NCBI GenBank assembly: GCA_024401295.1 | Contig: JAKSLG010000005.1 | Location: 1 to 64,000 of the forward strand | Source of the DNA: Bacteroidales bacterium | GTDB taxonomy: Bacteria; Bacteroidota; Bacteroidia; Bacteroidales; Marinilabiliaceae | Length of the DNA: 64,000 nt | Direction of reading: 5' to 3' | In this document: positions 1-62,501 of the stretch, one piece after another | Numbering within the stretch: position 1 is the first letter of the stretch | Layout of the letters: every line of letters starts with the position of its first letter | Position numbers and translations under genes: made by a program | The notes under the pieces: model-generated | What the model saw: the letters and a program-made list of their open reading frames with translations, nothing else | The model's database searches: none | What the model was told of the DNA's origin: nothing

Positions 1-12
1 TATATATTTATA

Positions 13-7752: not shown

Positions 7753-9648
7753 ATGAAAAAATTTCTCGGCATTGCCATCATTCTGGGCACATTGCTAACG
7801 GCTGCGACAGCCAACGCACAACGATTAAGCCGTAAGAATATGCGTAAGTTCGACCTCGCATACGCATTGGCAGAAGAGAGCAACAACCGCAAGGCTATCG
7901 ACCTTCTTCAAGAGATTTACAAGACAAACCCTGACAATATCGATGTGGTTTACAATCTCGGACTCTGCTACATGAACATGAGCGGAAACCCTGACTCTGC
8001 ACTTTTTTTCCTCGAAAAAACACTCAAGCTCGATACTGATCCTTGGAGCGATGCAACGAGCGAGCTCAAAATGGCCATTGCACGCGTAAAGCAGATGAAA
8101 TATGACTACGATGGAGCATTGAAAATATATAAGCAAGTCGAAAGACATGACAAAGAGAAGATCTGGGCAGAAGCTATCGAACACGAACGCAGCATTTGCG
8201 AAAACGCCAAGGTTTTGATTACAAACCCAGTACGTCTTGAAATCGAAAAACTTAGCGATAATGTAAATAGCGAATTCAACGACTATCGCCCTGTTATTTC
8301 GGCAGATCAGAATACGATTTTCTTCACATCTCGACGCAAGAACAAAGTCAAGGAGATTTTCGATGATGGCGAAAACGAAGAGCAGACATACGTCAGCAAC
8401 CGTCAGGAAGACGGAACTTGGAGCGAAGCAACACGCATAGACGGACTCTTCAGCAGCAAAGGTCAAGTAACTGCAACTTGTGTCCATGACAACGAACTCT
8501 ACATCGTCCGCGATGGTGACATCTACATTTCACGACGCGACAGCGCTAACGGCAATTGGAACAAGGCTACAACACTTGGCCCGACAATCAACAGCTCAAG
8601 CGACGAACGTTATGCATTCGTATCGGCTGATGGCAGCGAACTATATTTTTCATCAAATCGCGAAGGTGGTTTTGGAGGTTTTGATATCTATCACAGTTAT
8701 CGTTTGCCAAACGGACAGTGGGGCATTCCTCGCAACCTTGGCAGCGTAATCAACACAGAATATGACGAAGATTCTCCTGTGATGCATGCTGAAAAGCCTG
8801 TTCTTTATTTCAGCTCGAATGGCCACAACTCAATGGGTGGCTATGACATCTTCTTCTCAATCAAGAACGAAAACGACTCAGCCTTCCAAGCTGTTCAAAA
8901 TATTGGTTATCCAATCAACACCCCGGATGATGATCTTTACTTCGTTCCTACGACAGAGAAGGACATGGCTTATTATGCAAGCATAAACTGGGATAAGAAA
9001 GGCCAGGACTTCACTGGCTATGACATCTATGAAGTGACATATGACGAGCCAGAAATCAACACTCTCGCCATTTTGAGTGGCCACATCAAAAGTCTTGATG
9101 TTTCGGGCATCACGGTTACAGCCCTTCAAGACGGCGAACCAATTGGACGCTATACGCCGAATGCTGAAACTGGAAAGTTTGTAATCATCGTTGAGGAAGA
9201 TAGCGAATACACGATTGAAATCCAGTCAGACGTGAAGACCGAAAAAATCGTTGTCAGCACACACACCGGCGACAGCTATTTCAAACTTGGCCACACTATC
9301 GAATTGGATAAGATCGACTTTACTGAAGCTGAAATGGCTGCAGCACAAGCTGCAAAAGAGAAAGAGAAGCGTTCAAATGGCAGACCTGAATATGTGGAAG
9401 GAAAGACATATTACACAGTACAGATCCTGACGCTCTACGACACACTCAAGGTTGACCTCGATCTCGATGAAGATATGATTTATCATCACAAGACTCCAGA
9501 ATGGCATGTTTATAGCTATGGCGTTTTTGACAATCTTGAAGATGCACGCGAAGCTCAGAAACTTGTTGGTGAAAAGACTCCAATAAGCGATGCATTCATC
9601 CGCAAACTCAAGTCATACGACATCTTCGTCAATCGTGCTATAAAGTAA
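7753..9648 (+). CDS. Exported TPR / PD40-repeat protein with SPOR-like C-terminus
   Basis: A 631-aa protein with a signal peptide (cleavage near ANAQ, residues 20-23). Residues about 25-150 form TPR-like helices (AIDLLQEIYKTNPDNIDVVY). Residues about 170-430 hold WD40-like PD40 strands with repeated signatures such as NTIFFTSRR, ELYFSSNREGGFGGFDIY and VLYFSSNGHNSMGGYDIF. A carboxypeptidase-regulatory-like segment follows, and the last 90 residues (TYYTVQILTLYD, then SYGVFDNLEDAREAQKLV) look SPOR-like. This resembles PorE-type periplasmic proteins, but the OmpA peptidoglycan-binding domain is missing. A cell-envelope scaffold role is likely; direct involvement in type IX secretion is not shown. 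Confidence 0.7.
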   Translation: MKKFLGIAIILGTLLTAATANAQRLSRKNMRKFDLAYALAEESNNRKAIDLLQEIYKTNPDNIDVVYNLGLCYMNMSGNPDSALFFLEKTLKLDTDPWSDATSELKMAIARVKQMKYDYDGALKIYKQVERHDKEKIWAEAIEHERSICENAKVLITNPVRLEIEKLSDNVNSEFNDYRPVISADQNTIFFTSRRKNKVKEIFDDGENEEQTYVSNRQEDGTWSEATRIDGLFSSKGQVTATCVHDNELYIVRDGDIYISRRDSANGNWNKATTLGPTINSSSDERYAFVSADGSELYFSSNREGGFGGFDIYHSYRLPNGQWGIPRNLGSVINTEYDEDSPVMHAEKPVLYFSSNGHNSMGGYDIFFSIKNENDSAFQAVQNIGYPINTPDDDLYFVPTTEKDMAYYASINWDKKGQDFTGYDIYEVTYDEPEINTLAILSGHIKSLDVSGITVTALQDGEPIGRYTPNAETGKFVIIVEEDSEYTIEIQSDVKTEKIVVSTHTGDSYFKLGHTIELDKIDFTEAEMAAAQAAKEKEKRSNGRPEYVEGKTYYTVQILTLYDTLKVDLDLDEDMIYHHKTPEWHVYSYGVFDNLEDAREAQKLVGEKTPISDAFIRKLKSYDIFVNRAIK

Positions 9649-54387: not shown

Positions 54388-54410
54388 TGATAGTTGTGCA
54401 AAAACTATCA
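54388..54410 (+). promoter_or_regulatory. Hairpin or operator just before the methyltransferase start
   Basis: TGATAGTT / AACTATCA, 8-base arms with a 7-base loop, ends 4 bases before the ATG. It could mask the ribosome-binding region or bind a regulator. Confidence 0.5.
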
Positions 54411-54414
54411 GTCT

Positions 54415-55512
54415 ATGGCAGGGAATAAAAACCTTCATGCAGCCAACAAAGCCAAGCAGGATGAGTTCTATACCCAGTTGGGTGATATAGAAAACGAACT
54501 GAGGCACTATCGCAAGCATTTTCAGGGTAAGACTGTATTCTGTAATTGCGATGACCCATACGAGAGTAATTTCTTCAAGTATTTTGCTATGAACTTCAAC
54601 CAGCTTGGTTTGAAAAAACTTATTGCAACTTGTTATGACGGGTCTCCTGTGGCAAGTAGCCAGTTGTCGCTGTTCGATAACGAAGAAGAAAAAACAGAAC
54701 GAACAAGAGTGCCACACAAGATTGTCATTAACGAAGTTACTGACGTCAACGGCGATGGTGCTATCGATTTGGCTGATGTAGAGTGGCTAATAAAAAACGA
54801 CAAGAATGTATTGACGCGACTGGAAGGGAATGGTGATTTTCGTAGTGATGAATGTGTGGAGTTGCTGAAAGAAGCAGATATAGTGGTCACTAATCCTCCG
54901 TTTTCGCTTTTTAGAGAATACATTGCACAACTGATAGAGTACAAAAAGCAGTTCCTGATAGTCGGAAATCAAAATGCAATCACATACAAAGAGGTTTTCA
55001 AACTAATAAAGTCCAATGAGGTTTGGATGGGTTATAAATGTGGACACACTTTGTTTGAAGTGCCGCAGAGTTATTCAATTCCAGACTTTTATGACAAAAC
55101 AGACAAAAGCAAACTACGGTCAAATGGCTATATCGTAGATGAGAATGGTAAGCTTTGGCGAAATCTGGGAAATATCTGTTGGTTTACTAATCTTGACCAT
55201 AAAAAGCGTCATGAATTCTTAGACTTATTCAAACACTACACTCCTGAAGACTATCCAAAGTACGATAATTACGATGCGATTAATTGTGACTTGGTCGTAA
55301 ATATTCCTGACGATTATGATGGTGTGATTGGTGTTCCGATTTCTTTCTTGGATAAATATAATCCTGAGCAGTTTGAGTTACTTGATGCAAGAGATTTCAC
55401 AAATGTAGAAAGACTTAAAAACAAACAATATGGTTTAATAAAAGACGCAGACGGCGCAATAAATGGGAAACCTAAATACGCTCGCATCCTCATCCGCAAG
55501 AAATCCAATTAG
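54415..55512 (+). CDS. EcoRI-type adenine-specific DNA methyltransferase
   Basis: Predicted N6-adenine methyltransferase of about 365 aa. It has FYTQLGDIENELRHYRKHFQ, FCNCDDPYESNFFKYFAMNF and the catalytic motif IV DIVVTNPPFSLFREY (NPPF), as in the M.EcoRI family. ATG 54415 (MAGNKNLHAANKAK) is preferred over the TTG at 54394. It is followed 21 bases later by a DUF262-HNH nuclease gene and preceded by a structured leader. A modification role in a restriction-modification pair is likely; the recognition sequence is unknown. Confidence 0.85.
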   Translation: MAGNKNLHAANKAKQDEFYTQLGDIENELRHYRKHFQGKTVFCNCDDPYESNFFKYFAMNFNQLGLKKLIATCYDGSPVASSQLSLFDNEEEKTERTRVPHKIVINEVTDVNGDGAIDLADVEWLIKNDKNVLTRLEGNGDFRSDECVELLKEADIVVTNPPFSLFREYIAQLIEYKKQFLIVGNQNAITYKEVFKLIKSNEVWMGYKCGHTLFEVPQSYSIPDFYDKTDKSKLRSNGYIVDENGKLWRNLGNICWFTNLDHKKRHEFLDLFKHYTPEDYPKYDNYDAINCDLVVNIPDDYDGVIGVPISFLDKYNPEQFELLDARDFTNVERLKNKQYGLIKDADGAINGKPKYARILIRKKSN

Positions 55513-55533
55513 TAAACTTAATACCAATAAATT

Positions 55534-56649
55534 ATGCAGATAGAACTTCAAGAAATAGCCATACGCGACTTGGTGGCAGATTATGAGAACAACGACGAAC
55601 AGGGCGTTTCGGCTTACAGTGGTAAATTGGATATTCGTCCGCCATATCAGCGCGAATTTGTATATAAGGAAGAACAGCAAAAGGCCGTCATACAAACCAT
55701 ATCAAAGGGATTTCCGCTCAACGTGATGTATTGGGCCACACGTGAAGACGGCACATTTGAGGTGATTGACGGACAGCAACGAACCATGTCCATTTGCGAA
55801 TACGTAGGAAAAAATGCAGAAGGAGGTAATTTCTCTGTGGTGTTCGATGACGACAAGAACCCTAAGACATTCAACAATCTCACAGGTGACAAGCAAAAAC
55901 AGATACTCGACTACAAGCTGACTATCTACAAATGTACCGGAACCGACAGCGAAAAACTCGACTGGTTCCGCACCATCAATATTGCAGGCGAACGACTGAC
56001 AGATCAGGAGTTGCGCAACGCTGTTTATGCCGGACCATTTACGGCTGATGCCAAAAAGAAATTCAGCAAGACTGGTTGTGTCGCCTATAAGTTGGGCAAC
56101 AAACTCCTGAACGGAAACTGCATTCGTCAGGAATATCTCGAAACAGCCATAGAATGGATAAACAATGGTGATGTGTCGGCATATATGTCTAAACACCAAA
56201 AGGACAGCAATGCAGATGAGTTATGGACATACTTCAAGAATGTAATAGATTGGGTGAACCTGAAATTCAACAAATATCGCAAGGAGATGAAGGGTGTTGC
56301 CTGGGGTAAACTCTACAACAAGCACAAAGATGATAAACTCGACGCCAACGAACTTGAAAAGAAGATTGCTGAACTGATGAAAGACAGCGATGTGCAGAAG
56401 AAGTCGGGCATATATGCATACGTGCTCGATGGCGACGAACATCATCTTGGCATCCGAGCTTTCGACGACAACACAAAACGAGAAGTCTACGAGAAACAGA
56501 ACGGAATCTGCAAAATTTGTGGCAAGCACTTCGAAATAGAACAGATGGAAGCGGACCACATAACCCCTTGGAAAGAAGGAGGACGCACCATTGCCGAGAA
56601 CTGTCAGATGCTCTGCCGAGAATGCAACAGGAGAAAGAGTTCTAAGTAA
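55534..56649 (+). CDS. DUF262-HNH nuclease (GmrSD-like single chain)
   Basis: A 371-aa protein. Residues about 15-130 form the ParB-like NTPase/DUF262 domain: RPPYQREFVYKEEQQKAVIQ and FEVIDGQQRTMSI (DGQQR motif). The C-terminal HNH domain (about 318-371) has CKICGKHF, the catalytic EADHITPWKEGG and MLCRECNRRK, with four zinc cysteines. DUF262-HNH proteins relate to the GmrSD type IV enzymes that cut modified DNA in an NTP-dependent way. Being encoded next to a methyltransferase suggests it instead serves as the cutting half of a restriction-modification system, or attacks DNA with foreign modification. Confidence 0.85.
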   Translation: MQIELQEIAIRDLVADYENNDEQGVSAYSGKLDIRPPYQREFVYKEEQQKAVIQTISKGFPLNVMYWATREDGTFEVIDGQQRTMSICEYVGKNAEGGNFSVVFDDDKNPKTFNNLTGDKQKQILDYKLTIYKCTGTDSEKLDWFRTINIAGERLTDQELRNAVYAGPFTADAKKKFSKTGCVAYKLGNKLLNGNCIRQEYLETAIEWINNGDVSAYMSKHQKDSNADELWTYFKNVIDWVNLKFNKYRKEMKGVAWGKLYNKHKDDKLDANELEKKIAELMKDSDVQKKSGIYAYVLDGDEHHLGIRAFDDNTKREVYEKQNGICKICGKHFEIEQMEADHITPWKEGGRTIAENCQMLCRECNRRKSSK

Positions 56650-56875: not shown

Positions 56876-57283
56876 CTAGTATTCATCACCTTCTTCATCC
56901 ACTATGGGTTTACAGGTGACATTGACCATCTTCACCAAATAGCCACAAAAGTTTTTTGATTTGTCGTTAGGTTCTGGTTCGCTTTCCCATCCATCAGCTT
57001 CATTGAGTGAAATGTATGTTTCACGCTTATTCTTATTCTCGTCCAACTGGACTATCTCCGCCTCAATACTTACAACCGTACCCTCAATCGACAGACTTAA
57101 AATATCATGATGCTCTTCAATAAAGCTAACCTTGTGCCCATTGGCCACACATCCTCTTCCTGCTTTCCTTGCACCCCAAACCACATGGTCGCCCACTTTA
57201 AACGGTTCGCCACAACATTGTATCTGCCACGAGCTATAATAAACGTAGCACTCTTCTAGAGTTTTCTCTGTTACCAATACCAT
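56876..57283 (-). CDS. DUF6578-like protein
   Basis: A 135-aa protein with no signal peptide. The segment SSWQIQCCGEPFKVGDHVVW near residue 17 resembles DUF6578 proteins, better known from Actinobacteria. The C-terminus is acidic (DEEGDEY). Function is unknown. The gene is isolated on the minus strand between the palindrome at 56.7 kb and the imperfect one at 57.3 kb. Confidence 0.5.
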   Translation of the reverse strand: MVLVTEKTLEECYVYYSSWQIQCCGEPFKVGDHVVWGARKAGRGCVANGHKVSFIEEHHDILSLSIEGTVVSIEAEIVQLDENKNKRETYISLNEADGWESEPEPNDKSKNFCGYLVKMVNVTCKPIVDEEGDEY

Positions 57284-57312: not shown

Positions 57313-57390
57313 AGTGTCAAGGGAAGTCCAATTGTTACAACATAAAAAAATTTTCTTGCATTATGTAACAAACAACGGAACAATGACACT
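57313..57390. repeat. 78-base imperfect palindrome
   Basis: Ends are perfect (AGTGTCA 57313-57319 with TGACACT 57384-57390). Inside, TTGTTACAACATAA (57332-57345) nearly pairs with TTATGTAACAA (57361-57371). It could be a miniature mobile element or a regulatory hairpin in the 230-base gap between the DUF6578-like gene and the sigma operon. Confidence 0.55.
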
Positions 57391-57517
57391 ATATGTATGA
57401 TTGTTGTTGGACAGGGAAAGGTCTGTCTGCAAAACCGAACTCACGCCAATCCTTAGAGCGGTAACAAGATTCTTCGGCATCAGCCATTCATTTATGGCTG
57501 GTGCTTTCTTTATTAGG

Positions 57518-57865
57518 CTATTTGTCGTCAAGCAGATAAGCCTTTAGTATATCGATTGGTGGTACAGGGCTACCATAATTAGGTGAAGAATCGTCTATCT
57601 TGCCACCTCGTCCTGTCCTGTGCAATTTTGGCATGGTAACCGATATGTTGCGACGAGCAGGACGACCTTTGATATTCGTAGCGTTAATCTCTTCTTCCAT
57701 GATGGCAAAGTTCCGCGTATCGAGTTCGCCAGCAGCTCGTTTCTCCATCAACTGCAACACATTAAATGTCAGGATAAAGTCTTCTGCAAGTTCGTCTCGC
57801 ACCGTCTGTTTCTGTTCTGAATTAAGGCGGAGATATACGTAGTCTATAAGTTGTTCTCGTTTCAT
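57518..57865 (-). CDS. Small anti-sigma-like protein
   Basis: A 115-aa protein with no transmembrane helix. Residues 1-45 (MKREQLIDYVYLRLNSEQKQ, then DELAEDFILTFNVLQLM) have the helix pattern of the anti-sigma domain of ZAS-type proteins, without the zinc Cys/His residues. The rest is basic and probably disordered (KGRPARRNISVTMPKLHRTG), ending in PPIDILKAYLLDDK. Its ATG overlaps the sigma-factor stop (ATGA), the usual sigma/anti-sigma arrangement. The assignment rests on pattern and context only. Confidence 0.45.
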   Translation of the reverse strand: MKREQLIDYVYLRLNSEQKQTVRDELAEDFILTFNVLQLMEKRAAGELDTRNFAIMEEEINATNIKGRPARRNISVTMPKLHRTGRGGKIDDSSPNYGSPVPPIDILKAYLLDDK

Positions 57866-58452
57866 AATGCAGATTTTTCTATTTCTATCACCAACTTCTT
57901 GATTTTTTGTTTGAGACGTGTTCGCATGACACGAAGGTAGCCATCAGATATGTGAAGAATCGATGTGAGCGATATATTTTCAGCAGAATGTGCAATTCCG
58001 GCTTTTTCAATCAAGTCGTAAAAGAATATAATTCTTTCAGGAGCAGAATATGTCTCGTTCACTTTTTCAAAGAGGAGAATAGCCGTGTGCTTCTGCATCT
58101 CGGAAACGACTGTATCGTTCTCCTCGTACCTGTCATGAGCGACTTCGAACTTGTCAGTCGGCATCTTTTTTTGCCTGCGCAACACATTGCTTGATATATA
58201 GTTGAAAAGTGTAGTTTTCAACCAGCTGCATCGAGCTCCGTCACTGTCCATCCTGATGGTGTGGAATGATGCGAATGGCCCTTTTTTGTCCTCACGCAGA
58301 TAGAGGAAGAAGTCCATAAGCGTATCTTCAAAATCTTCAATACTGATTCCTTCGGAGCGCATTACTTGTTCCAACGCAGTGCGAAATTTGTCTGTGATGA
58401 GATTGTATACATATCCTTCTTCTGTGTGCAGTATGTCGTCAATATACATCAT
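57862..58452 (-). CDS. Divergent ECF-like sigma factor
   Basis: About 196 aa; ATG 58452 is preferred over an in-frame TTG at 58461. The sigma region 2 pattern is FEDTLMDFFLYLRE and WLKTTLFNYISSNVLRRQKK. Region 4 appears as ENISLTSILHISDGYLRVMR, a helix-turn-helix, then TRLKQKIKKLV. It is clearly diverged from housekeeping ECF factors. It lies between a caspase-like peptidase gene (5-base gap) and a small anti-sigma-like gene (4-base overlap), so all three are translationally linked. Confidence 0.6.
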   Translation of the reverse strand: MMYIDDILHTEEGYVYNLITDKFRTALEQVMRSEGISIEDFEDTLMDFFLYLREDKKGPFASFHTIRMDSDGARCSWLKTTLFNYISSNVLRRQKKMPTDKFEVAHDRYEENDTVVSEMQKHTAILLFEKVNETYSAPERIIFFYDLIEKAGIAHSAENISLTSILHISDGYLRVMRTRLKQKIKKLVIEIEKSAL

Positions 58453-58457
58453 AGCAA

Positions 58458-59012
58458 TCAATAGTGGATGAATCCGAGTTTGTCTCGCAACCCTGCATAA
58501 AGAAGGTCGTAGTTCTTAAATATAGTCTGAGTGGTTGAGTATTTGAGGTATTCGGAAAAGAATGCAACATCATTTATGGCGGCAAGCGATTCTTCAACAC
58601 TCTTGGTATATCCAGAGACTATAAATGCCTCACTTTCATATTTGAAATCCCGTATAACATCCTCGTCGGCAGATAGAGTCTGGCAACTGCTGAAGTGCAC
58701 CAGCTTGTCACGAAAGATTGTGCCGCCCATGTCGAGCAATTCTGGCATCGTGATTTTGTAATCTTCTCCTTCAAGGCATATCCCGCCCTTGTCGCCATGC
58801 AGACTGAACATGATGATGTTGTATGAACTGTATTTCCGAAGTTGCTTAAGATAGTATTGCAATTCGTTGCGAGTAGCTACACGACGATATATTGTGTTGA
58901 TATCGTGCATCTCCTTTAGAAACTGCATCAATGGTTCTGAATTGAGGTTGAGACGGTTCTCCTTGTCTGTCAGTAAGAAATCCGACTCTATGCATATTAT
59001 ACCTTGCTTCAT
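58458..59012 (-). CDS. Caspase-like DUF6642-type peptidase
   Basis: A 184-aa cytoplasmic protein. A His-Cys dyad sits in the caspase-fold arrangement: His72 in IMFSLHGDKGGICLEG and Cys110 in KLVHFSSCQTLSADED. The N-terminus MKQGIICIES and the segment YRRVATRNELQYYLKQLRKY match what I recall of DUF6642, a CHAT/caspase-related family. It has no fused sensor domain. It is the first gene of a three-gene operon with a sigma factor and an anti-sigma-like protein, suggesting that it cleaves a partner to alter transcription; this is inference. Confidence 0.6.
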   Translation of the reverse strand: MKQGIICIESDFLLTDKENRLNLNSEPLMQFLKEMHDINTIYRRVATRNELQYYLKQLRKYSSYNIIMFSLHGDKGGICLEGEDYKITMPELLDMGGTIFRDKLVHFSSCQTLSADEDVIRDFKYESEAFIVSGYTKSVEESLAAINDVAFFSEYLKYSTTQTIFKNYDLLYAGLRDKLGFIHY

Positions 59013-59266
59013 GAGTAGTGAATAGAAGAGTTTTCGGTAGTAATCTATTAAGAGGTTTGACTATTTGTCCCATTCTGTTGCAGAATATGGCGACATAGTC
59101 CCCTTTTTGTACGACGAGAACAAAAATATGTTGTTTTTTTTCAAAACAGGCGACAAGTCGTCCGTTAATGAGGATGTGAGCATTTTTTTTGAGGCAAGTT
59201 GTAACAAGCGAACAAACACTGACACTTTATGATTGAAAAACAAATTAACACAAAAGACGAGATAAT

Positions 59267-60802
59267 ATGTGGCGACTTGAACATTTTCTTAGAATCGAAT
59301 ATCCGTATAGAGACACAGATACAACTAAATGTGCCATAATTCTGTGGTTGTCTTCATCAAGACAACTGCTGATTGATCCGCTACAACTGCATAAGACAAT
59401 TATAGCTAAACCAGATTTTGGAGAATTTTTGATCACTGACAAAATCAATGATTCGTACACAATCCATGTGACACATGATGCCATCAACATATACTGGACT
59501 GTAGTAACAACCGCTTTCAAAATGCCCAGAGTATTCTATTGCTCACGCCGCGAATATCTCAAGCAATGTGTCAAGATGATGTCGTTGTTGTGCGATAATA
59601 TCAAAAAGGGGAAAGAAACAGATTATACTAGACAACAGCTCTCTGAATTCAAAAGAAAGCTATGGAACAGGAAGTTTGTCGTGTATGGCCTAAGTCACAA
59701 TGATCCAGAGAGCATGGCCGACATGGCTTATGGCGTTTTCGATTTAAAGATAAAGACAGAATACGATCACGATTCAGACGTATGTTATAACATAAGTGTT
59801 GGACCTTTGAATTATTGCAGTGCTATAATTGATTATTCCACATTCCCACCTCTTCGCAACCAGCTTGAAAATGCCGTTTATTGTTATGGAGAAGAATGTC
59901 GCCTTCGATTCATTTACGAATACTTTGGCGAGTCTACATATCTTGATTTTAAGGAAGGAATGCTTTATATTACGCATCCTGAAGGCTTTCGACTCAATGA
60001 TCTTGTTGCGTACATTGGCAGTTGTTATGGTATTATCAGGAACGTTTATTGCCACTTGCTCTCCTATGCAGTGTACAGATGGCGAAAATACACTTCTCTC
60101 AACGACAGACCCAATGGTGAGGCTCTCTACAATCAAATGAAATCAGTTGTCATAGAGAGATATCTGCAGGGAATACGCCTTTCTGATGATGACACATCCA
60201 CAGAGCATGCCTATAAGATAAATCACGTGTTGACGATGAAGGCTGGAAACAACGGCCTGACTGATGAATTTGGCAATTGCTATGTCATAGAAAACGACAC
60301 AATATGTCTCGACAGACTTGTCCGAAGGCCCTTGACTATAAAAGTCAGCGACTTGTCGCTATGGCTGACACGTTACGACCCTCAGAACTTGAAACTACTA
60401 CGTGGATGGTGGTTTAGCAAAGGTGAAAAAATTATGAAAAAGATAAAGGCACAGCTGCCGTCAGACATCGACCTGTGGCTCGCTCCTGCCGAAGGTAGCG
60501 AGTGGCCATTCCTCGATTTCCCCAAATTGTACATGACGCAGCACAAGCCATGTTACATGGATTTGAAACAAAAAATAATGTTTGAACTAGAAGGCTTCAA
60601 TCTGCTAAATAAAAAAGAACAGGAATCGGTGCAAAGGTTTATAGGTCGGCACTTTCATAGCTGTACAAAGGCTTACAATGATTATCCATCATTCGATATC
60701 CAGCGCGACAGGTCAACGGATATCACAAAAATCACTATACATTGCAAGAATTGCGACTCACGCGAAGACATTACAGATTATTCGAGTTGGCAGCTTGAAT
60801 AA
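59267..60802 (+). CDS. Large protein of unknown function
   Basis: A 511-aa protein with no signal peptide, clear transmembrane helix or family motif that I recognise. It is rich in Tyr, Cys and Trp. The C-terminus has paired cysteines and histidines (RHFHSCTKAYND, then HCKNCDSREDI) that might bind zinc. It is divergent from the caspase/sigma operon across a 254-base gap and is followed 91 bases later by a WG-repeat protein. Composition is AT-rich, fitting acquired DNA. Confidence 0.6.
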   Translation: MWRLEHFLRIEYPYRDTDTTKCAIILWLSSSRQLLIDPLQLHKTIIAKPDFGEFLITDKINDSYTIHVTHDAINIYWTVVTTAFKMPRVFYCSRREYLKQCVKMMSLLCDNIKKGKETDYTRQQLSEFKRKLWNRKFVVYGLSHNDPESMADMAYGVFDLKIKTEYDHDSDVCYNISVGPLNYCSAIIDYSTFPPLRNQLENAVYCYGEECRLRFIYEYFGESTYLDFKEGMLYITHPEGFRLNDLVAYIGSCYGIIRNVYCHLLSYAVYRWRKYTSLNDRPNGEALYNQMKSVVIERYLQGIRLSDDDTSTEHAYKINHVLTMKAGNNGLTDEFGNCYVIENDTICLDRLVRRPLTIKVSDLSLWLTRYDPQNLKLLRGWWFSKGEKIMKKIKAQLPSDIDLWLAPAEGSEWPFLDFPKLYMTQHKPCYMDLKQKIMFELEGFNLLNKKEQESVQRFIGRHFHSCTKAYNDYPSFDIQRDRSTDITKITIHCKNCDSREDITDYSSWQLE

Positions 60803-60893: not shown

Positions 60894-62501
60894 ATGGAAC
60901 AGAATGAAGACTTGCTTAAAAAGTTAGAAGAGTCACTGCCGACTCCAGACATCATGAGAAAAAGAGGACCAAATATCCGCTCAAAATACGAGAAAGCCCG
61001 TTCGGGTGTCGTTTTTGAAGAGAATGGCCTATGGGGTATTAAAGATTCAAACGGCGATATTGTTTATAAGCCGGAATTCAAATTGATATCAAAAAGTTCA
61101 TCTTCCGTATTTTTTCTTAAACCCGATGGGGCATACATCAAGATAAAAAATGGTTGCGAGGAACAAGGGCGCTTAATGGAGGACGAGATGCCATATATAG
61201 TCAATGGCAAGGTGGGATTCGTGGAGAACAATGTGGTTATCGTTCCTCCTGTATACGACAACGTTAGCCAAAGGTTAGGAAGTCTTTTGGTGGCAGAAAA
61301 AGATGGTGAATACACATATTACGATATGTCAGGCAAGCAGGTCCTCCACAATTTAAGACGATTTGATGGTGACGACATTCCTGAATCCAGAATATACTTA
61401 CGTACTAATGCGTTTGACAAATTTACTACCTGCAGATTCGTTGGACAACAAGAGATCAACAATCCTAATGTTGTTAAAGTTCGTGACGAATGGGTTGAAC
61501 TGGAGCGATACAGCAAAGATGAAATACTTTCGATGCTGATTGACCCGAACGATGATTTAGCTTTGACCGCAGAAAACATATCACTATTGACCAACGAGTT
61601 CTCGTATGAGTATAGTGTTTATTTCACTCAGTCGAACAGTCCTAATCCACTGCAAGATTGTCTTGATCAACTTGCCAGAATGAAGACTTTCTGCAATTCA
61701 TGGTATTATGTTGTAAAAATATGGCAGGCTCCAGGCGAACATGTCAATGCTTCCGAGTTAAGACATTTCAGGCACAAGCTGAATGAAACAAGACAATTGG
61801 GAGAGTTGACCATTGCAGTCGGTCATGATGCTTCACTTAAATCTGGCGAGGTGCGTATGCTCTTTATAACACATTATCACGAACGTTGCTTCCCTGCAGA
61901 TTTCGAATTTGAATGGAGGAAGAAATGTCGTACATTGTCAATTAGTGAGTTGAAGGATGCCGTTCCTGAATTAAAGGAGGCAATCAAAGATGAAATATTG
62001 GAGAAAAATCAAGCCGAAGTGTATCAGGACCAGCTATTGCCTGTTCTGGAAAACATTAGGTATTCCGATAACATTTCATGGGAAAAAACTGAAAATGCAC
62101 TGGAGTTTTTTGTGGCAGAAGGCAGTCCAGTGAAATTGACACTATTATACTCTTTGTTTGACGCCGTTAATCGAATCAGACACAACGACATTGAAGCTGC
62201 ACTATTCCATATCCGCGTCTCCTTATGGGCCTTGAAACATGGTTCTTCTGTAACCGCTGTGTATAAGGATATGACACCATGGGATTATACGATGGAAGTG
62301 TCAAGAAACCACAATGCCAATAAACTTGGTGCCCCACTCCTCGAGTTAAAGACCGCATTGTTGACCGTCGGTGCAAAATCGTGCGCTCAGCTCAAACTGG
62401 AAGAGAGAACCAACAGCGACTATTACAAAGAGTTGGACTACATGCGTTTGGATGACTTTTCAAGCAAAGATATGCCGTCGTTTTGCTATGCAAAGCTTTA
62501 G
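60894..62501 (+). CDS. WG-repeat protein of unknown function
   Basis: A 535-aa protein starting MEQNEDLLKKLEESLPTPDI. Two to three WG-type repeats occupy about residues 40-155: GLWGIKDSNGDIVYKPEFKL, GKVGFVENNVVIVPPVYDNV and a third with YTYYDMSGKQVL. The remaining ~370 residues show no known motif. WG repeats usually form beta-rich binding surfaces. The start is ATG 60894, since upstream in-frame sequence lies inside the previous gene. A perfect -7 box TACATTTG (60858-60865) precedes it but lacks a good -33 box. Confidence 0.65.
   Translation: MEQNEDLLKKLEESLPTPDIMRKRGPNIRSKYEKARSGVVFEENGLWGIKDSNGDIVYKPEFKLISKSSSSVFFLKPDGAYIKIKNGCEEQGRLMEDEMPYIVNGKVGFVENNVVIVPPVYDNVSQRLGSLLVAEKDGEYTYYDMSGKQVLHNLRRFDGDDIPESRIYLRTNAFDKFTTCRFVGQQEINNPNVVKVRDEWVELERYSKDEILSMLIDPNDDLALTAENISLLTNEFSYEYSVYFTQSNSPNPLQDCLDQLARMKTFCNSWYYVVKIWQAPGEHVNASELRHFRHKLNETRQLGELTIAVGHDASLKSGEVRMLFITHYHERCFPADFEFEWRKKCRTLSISELKDAVPELKEAIKDEILEKNQAEVYQDQLLPVLENIRYSDNISWEKTENALEFFVAEGSPVKLTLLYSLFDAVNRIRHNDIEAALFHIRVSLWALKHGSSVTAVYKDMTPWDYTMEVSRNHNANKLGAPLLELKTALLTVGAKSCAQLKLEERTNSDYYKELDYMRLDDFSSKDMPSFCYAKL

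Follow-up and report, generated by a model that had tools for sequence, protein, structure and literature searches.

A compact operon of three genes on the minus strand of a 64,000-nt stretch of a Bacteroidales genome (contig JAKSLG010000005.1, positions 1 to 64,000, here called the window) encodes a DUF6642 protein predicted to be a caspase/CHAT-like peptidase (P), a probable divergent ECF-type sigma factor (S) and a small soluble protein that is a candidate anti-sigma factor (A). Our preferred reading, held tentatively and at a little less than even confidence, is that P-S-A forms a local peptidase-gated ECF sigma switch with a regulon of three promoters, in a neighbourhood with no CRISPR genes. 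In the resting state S would be held by A, acting as a cytosolic anti-sigma factor, and P, once triggered, would inactivate A, most simply by cutting it. The freed S would direct RNA polymerase to TGTAAC-N17-CACT promoters, three of which lie locally and would drive a possibly defensive response consisting of a DUF6578 protein, a structured RNA of ~115 nt and a 511-aa protein together with its WG-repeat neighbour.

The initial annotation had described three reading frames separated by a 5-base gap and a 4-base overlap, all of which were confirmed on the minus strand, and the operon is real. The gene order is P-S-A, with P (58458..59012, minus strand, 184 aa) as the first gene, followed after 5 nt by S (57862..58452, minus strand, 196 aa when read from the ATG at 58452; a TTG at 58461 is an in-frame alternative start), which overlaps A (57518..57865, minus strand, 115 aa) by 4 nt. 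That the arrangement is more than chance follows from the presence of S homologues in other genomes and from A being found only beside S. The host assembly comprises 40 contigs and 2.3 Mb and is estimated to be 75% complete. Other defence genes had also been claimed for the region, and a probable restriction-modification pair was indeed found at 54394-56649, consisting of an EcoRI-type adenine methylase and then a GmrSD/HNH protein matching the type II restriction enzymes of PADLOC; the HNH part of the latter shows a weak likeness to Cas9d/IscB, far under the cut-off. As for the claim that the three parts occur without CRISPR, it holds for the nine proteins covered by the scan (those of the operon and of six neighbouring genes), for which Pfam, NCBIfam and PADLOC gave no CRISPR-related match above cut-off.

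When S was searched directly, no Pfam match above cut-off and no NCBIfam or PADLOC match was obtained, and the Pfam models Sigma70_r2/r4 showed no direct match to S or to six of its relatives, S being very divergent. A profile of seven S relatives compared by hhalign with 17 ECF sigma factors revealed homology over 173 columns (prob 98.9, E 1.1e-17) covering both region 2 and region 4, the two regions by which ECF sigma factors are recognised. The best PDB sequence matches of S are to E. coli sigma-E (E 0.025 and 0.033). The structural model of S is poor (pLDDT 63.5, pTM 0.42) and its Foldseek matches are topped by sigma-E at E 0.096, none reaching E 0.001; places one to seven are all taken by chain F, the sigma subunit, of RNA polymerase initiation complexes, and the top three are named for sigma-E, -H and -L. 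With a threshold of E 0.001 the same profile matched 77 of 393 genomes, with six strong matches in five genomes, and 25 loci translated from the tail of this search were mostly ordinary ECF sigma factors (three Pfam-confirmed with regions 2 and 4), which in itself shows the homology of S to this group; the ECF-like tail was left out of the S family counts. In the neighbouring sigma clade a Sigma70_r4 Pfam match at or above cut-off was found in five of six proteins tested. S is thus well supported by sequence as a divergent ECF-type sigma factor, as the initial annotation had proposed, and the match to sigma factors that it had suggested looking for in its 199-aa protein is given by the profile comparison. 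Single-sequence searches with S recovered few relatives, in 2 of 71 genomes of the window's own family and in 5 of 393, a scan of genome contigs gave two loci (G059 and G091), and no match was found in the phage, plasmid and viral-contig collections.

Reading of the intergenic DNA revealed the motif TGTAACAA-N12-TGACACT, present in exactly three copies in the 2.3-Mb assembly, all less than 1 kb from S. Site 1 (57313..57339, minus strand) ends 29 nt before the start codon of the DUF6578 gene, site 2 (57364..57390, plus strand) precedes a candidate non-coding RNA and site 3 (59200..59226, plus strand) ends 40 nt before the start codon of the gene for the 511-aa protein; all three are exact matches. 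With one mismatch the motif does not occur in the assembly and with two it occurs nine times, which is the chance level, since the total of 12 at up to two mismatches compares with 11 for a reversed control. An AAC in the -35 element is a feature of ECF promoters, and the motif flanking the operon, itself well supported, fits S, which probably reads it. The 388 nt upstream of P contain no such site, the best having 2 mismatches out of 10 and lying 311 nt away, and since P lacks an S-type site and shares its operon with S and A it would suit the part of a regulator better than that of a target.

The first of the predicted S targets, the DUF6578 protein (56876..57283, minus strand, 135 aa), matches Pfam PF20218 with 62.2 bits and has site 1 upstream. 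Behind site 3 lies the 511-aa protein (59267..60802, plus strand), for which neither a Pfam match above cut-off nor a PHROG or PDB match was found; like the DUF6578 protein it had no plasmid match. Located 91 nt behind its gene, and perhaps on the same transcript, is a gene for a WG-repeat-like protein (60894..62501, plus strand, 535 aa from its inferred start; a longer open reading frame exists), with a weak match to WG_beta_rep of 19.3 bits, below the cut-off of 25.6. The candidate RNA behind site 2 (57397..57515, plus strand, ~115 nt, its ends chosen by the analyst) is convergent with A and ends in a terminator-like hairpin (57476-57505). Its folding gave an MFE of -36.3 kcal/mol and a z of -3.0, with one in 200 shuffles as good, and Rfam gave only two chance-like matches, neither inside the candidate RNA. 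A reading frame of 23 codons (57393-57464 of the window) begins 3 nt behind site 2 and overlaps the candidate RNA.

An architecture of the form TGTAAC-N16/17-YACY adjoins S relatives in the genus of the window (G059) and in three other families. In 41 other S loci (433 kb) TGTAAC and [TC]ACT are found 28 times at spacers of 16 or 17 as against six times at the 14 other spacers between 10 and 25, the corresponding numbers being one and six in 34 control loci (196 kb) and zero and one in six loci of the neighbouring clade. When the end is loosened to [TC]AC[TC] the S loci hold 35 sites, of which five stand before a vWA gene (one of them a broken copy) and six before S; others precede an RNA-ligase-like protein, a DUF1016_N protein (start codon uncertain) and AAA ATPases, and several look like chance. 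In the analyst's judgement a convincing site is present in 19 of the 41 loci and none in 22, which counts against the preferred reading, as does the lack of sites at spacers 16/17 in the neighbouring clade. A matrix made from 25 of the 35 foreign sites, after ten had been removed on inspection because they were near-duplicates or did not look like promoters, ranks the three sites of the window 1-3 with 19.3-20.2 bits, the next scoring 16.0, and among 500 shuffled windows one site this good was seen in 48 and two or more in none. The matrix test has some dependence on the window, from which the search pattern for the foreign sites had been taken, and the spacer preference is the cleaner of the two tests. 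At 8871-9497 of locus L026 the RNA-ligase-like gene (phrog_968, E 2e-26), truncated where the stretch ends, lies behind an S-type promoter, and the outputs of the sigma family may include RNA repair.

P belongs to the Pfam family DUF6642 (PF20347) with 58.3 bits against a cut-off of 27. The family was found at 11 places in 393 genomes of the order, and in the ten proteins aligned (L032 was omitted) His72, Gly73 and Cys110 of P are invariant, in agreement with the DUF6642-type His72/Cys110 peptidase named by the initial annotation. A His-Gly and a Cys placed at strand ends are the mark of caspase/CHAT-type (clan CD) cysteine peptidases, and P has this dyad: in its AlphaFold model, an alternating alpha/beta fold of middling confidence (pLDDT 68, alignment of two sequences), His72 follows the strand 66-70 and Cys110 the strand 104-107. 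Foldseek ranks an azoreductase first for this model, a SAVED-CHAT protein (PDB 8tl0) second and procaspase-1 fifth, and the predicted fold is compatible with, but no proof of, a caspase/CHAT peptidase. P has no sensor domain, which speaks against the preferred reading, and its 184 aa are covered by DUF6642 with no space for SAVED. A literature search found no paper that mentions DUF6642. In the phage, plasmid and viral-contig collections P matched one viral contig and one plasmid, with no match among phage records. On the viral contig (L070, 4998-7026), as in a Bacteroidales genome (L036, 6981-9009), the DUF6642 gene is followed by what by eye seem to be the same two genes, perhaps a mobile cassette, and on the plasmid, from Brevibacterium (L071, 1657-4483), a gene annotated as abortive infection family lies near it.

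A gave no Pfam match above cut-off and no NCBIfam or PADLOC match, its profile showed no sequence similarity to solved structures, and inspection of its sequence revealed no obvious membrane segment. It was found in 2 of 393 genomes and in G059, in all cases beside S. The anti-sigma-like N-terminus ascribed to it earlier stands as a moderate likeness: residues 2-37 align by hhalign with the N-termini of four proteins whose genes follow sigma genes in the neighbouring clade (prob 59, P 9.2e-5, none of 200 column shuffles as good). These comparators owe the name anti-sigma to their position and appearance, and a single one of them (L069) has a zf-HC2 match, which is below cut-off. The sequence evidence argues moderately for A as an inhibitor of S.

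To follow the recurrence of the three genes, 41 S loci besides that of the window were surveyed with their flanks, 31 of them from one genus and so not independent. Core S genes are present in the families of G360 (7 of 15 genomes), G269 (31 of 173) and G091 (1 of 9). The 41 loci carry a separate A in two cases, P in none and a vWA gene in ten (one broken), and no S was found within the flanks fetched at the ten other DUF6642 loci. Some of these flanks are short at contig ends (in L035 P ends ~0.1 kb from the end, in L118 S starts ~0.1 kb from it), so that a partner gene could be missed there. P, S and A thus stand together once among 42 S loci and once among 11 DUF6642 loci, unique in the sample; the initial annotation had named a lack of recurrence of the trio as a result that would refute it, and its interpretation is supported in part. 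The recurring partner of S is instead vWA. The idea that P has replaced vWA as partner of S was dropped, since in five of the ten vWA loci the vWA gene (one copy broken) stands behind an S-type promoter and so looks like a target; the assembly of the window gave no match to one such vWA protein. At L120 (5646-6461) S has as its neighbour a vWA gene broken in two, in front of which stands an S-type promoter match. Among five loci of the neighbouring sigma clade scanned (L142 was left out) C39-like peptidase domains were found in two, L068 and L143, where they belong to anti-sigma-like proteins, a C14 caspase protein beside the sigma gene in one, L144, and a TIR and STAND pair in one, L069, where an anti-sigma-like protein accompanies the TIR and nSTAND1 genes.

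This distribution bears most on the part of P, whose proposed action on A is suggested by its position in the operon and by precedent. With the three genes together only once in either set of loci P could be a passenger, and it is possible, if on the doubtful side, that S, A and the three local promoters make up a true sigma/anti-sigma switch on which P has no bearing through A, being either a co-transcribed effector or an arrival from a mobile pool of DUF6642 genes. The absence of S from 10 of 10 other DUF6642 loci and of P from 41 of 41 other S loci, within the flanks fetched, agrees with this, as do the DUF6642 genes on a viral contig and on a plasmid and the one in L028 that adjoins a gene reading by eye like a tyrosine recombinase. 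The tight packing of the operon with P in the control position points the other way, as do the proteins with C39-like or C14 peptidase domains at three of five loci scanned in the next sigma clade.

The part of A may also be read differently. The S frames are long and carry a C-terminal extension in 39 of 42 loci (38 open reading frames of 276-375 aa and an open frame of 314 aa in L111), loci which have no separate A, and vWA, not P, accompanies the free A of two other loci; A might on these grounds be an accessory part of the sigma factor, the split-off counterpart of the extension and not an inhibitor, with activation by another route. We consider this unlikely, as a comparison of A with the extensions by hhalign lent it no support (best prob 9.2, P 0.0036) and the likeness to anti-sigma-like N-termini (prob 59) lends some to inhibition. 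Still less probable, in fact very improbable, is that the three repeats are operators of another DNA-binding protein and not S promoters. All 15 fixed bases are common to the three copies, and two copies stand back to back (57313-57390) as operators can do, but the geometry is directional, two copies being followed by start codons at distances of 29 and 40 nt, the -35 element has the AAC of the ECF type and beside S relatives a spacer of 16 or 17 is preferred.

Compared with known systems, the peptidase-gated sigma switch that we prefer for P-S-A has its closest precedents in type III CRISPR. According to the available text on CalpL/CalpT/CalpS (PMC11417357) a protease, an anti-sigma factor and an ECF sigma factor form a tripartite unit in which CalpL, a SAVED-Lon protein, is switched on by cA4. 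P-S-A resembles it in uniting a protease, a (here candidate) anti-sigma factor and an ECF sigma factor, and differs in that P is a bare DUF6642 domain, while the scan of the nine proteins gave no match to Lon or SAVED. In the Craspase system of type III-E (Csx29/Csx30/CASP-sigma), the accessible part of PMC10028731 describes a CHAT-type protease, Csx29, which is a TPR-CHAT protein bound to Cas7-11, together with a sigma inhibitor, an ECF sigma factor and predicted binding motifs inside the locus. The window has a like set, with a predicted CHAT-type protease, a candidate inhibitor, an ECF sigma factor and motifs in its own locus, and lacks gRAMP/Cas7-11 and TPR-CHAT among the nine proteins scanned; A would be the counterpart of Csx30 by role, and its profile showed no sequence similarity to any solved structure. 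With their defining parts absent among these nine proteins, P-S-A does not appear to be a member of type III-E or of CalpL/T/S, and it plausibly works, by analogy, like both.

Outside CRISPR, the EACC2-caspase systems are predicted conflict neighbourhoods in which a caspase domain occurs together with ECF sigma genes (PMC8195603, in the portion available), as the predicted caspase-type domain of P occurs together with the sigma gene here. Unlike P-S-A the EACC2 proteins are multidomain and accompanied by a gene for a TPR protein, and that portion of PMC8195603 describes no separate small anti-sigma gene. The SAVED-CHAT protein matched by the P model, as far as it is covered by the accessible text of PMC11229360, differs from P in the SAVED domain for which P has no room. 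A literature search on caspase/CHAT proteins with ECF sigma and anti-sigma factors, by titles and the beginnings of abstracts, found no paper on this operon.

In two kinds of CRISPR system the output arm has lately turned out to be a protease-released sigma factor, and a CRISPR-free version would show what this arm is like by itself. The reading proposed here would give DUF6642 and DUF6578 their first functional hypothesis and a promoter code to a sigma family unrecognised by Pfam, and a set of three genes and three reporters would be enough to test it, given candidate promoters known to base precision and a local regulon. It is possible, rather than probable, that P-S-A is a free-standing peptidase/anti-sigma/ECF-sigma alarm without a CRISPR front end, in which DUF6642 would be the activating protease, three promoters, one of them making a small RNA, would constitute a self-contained regulon, and the sigma family would be an exchangeable output module that serves other partners elsewhere.
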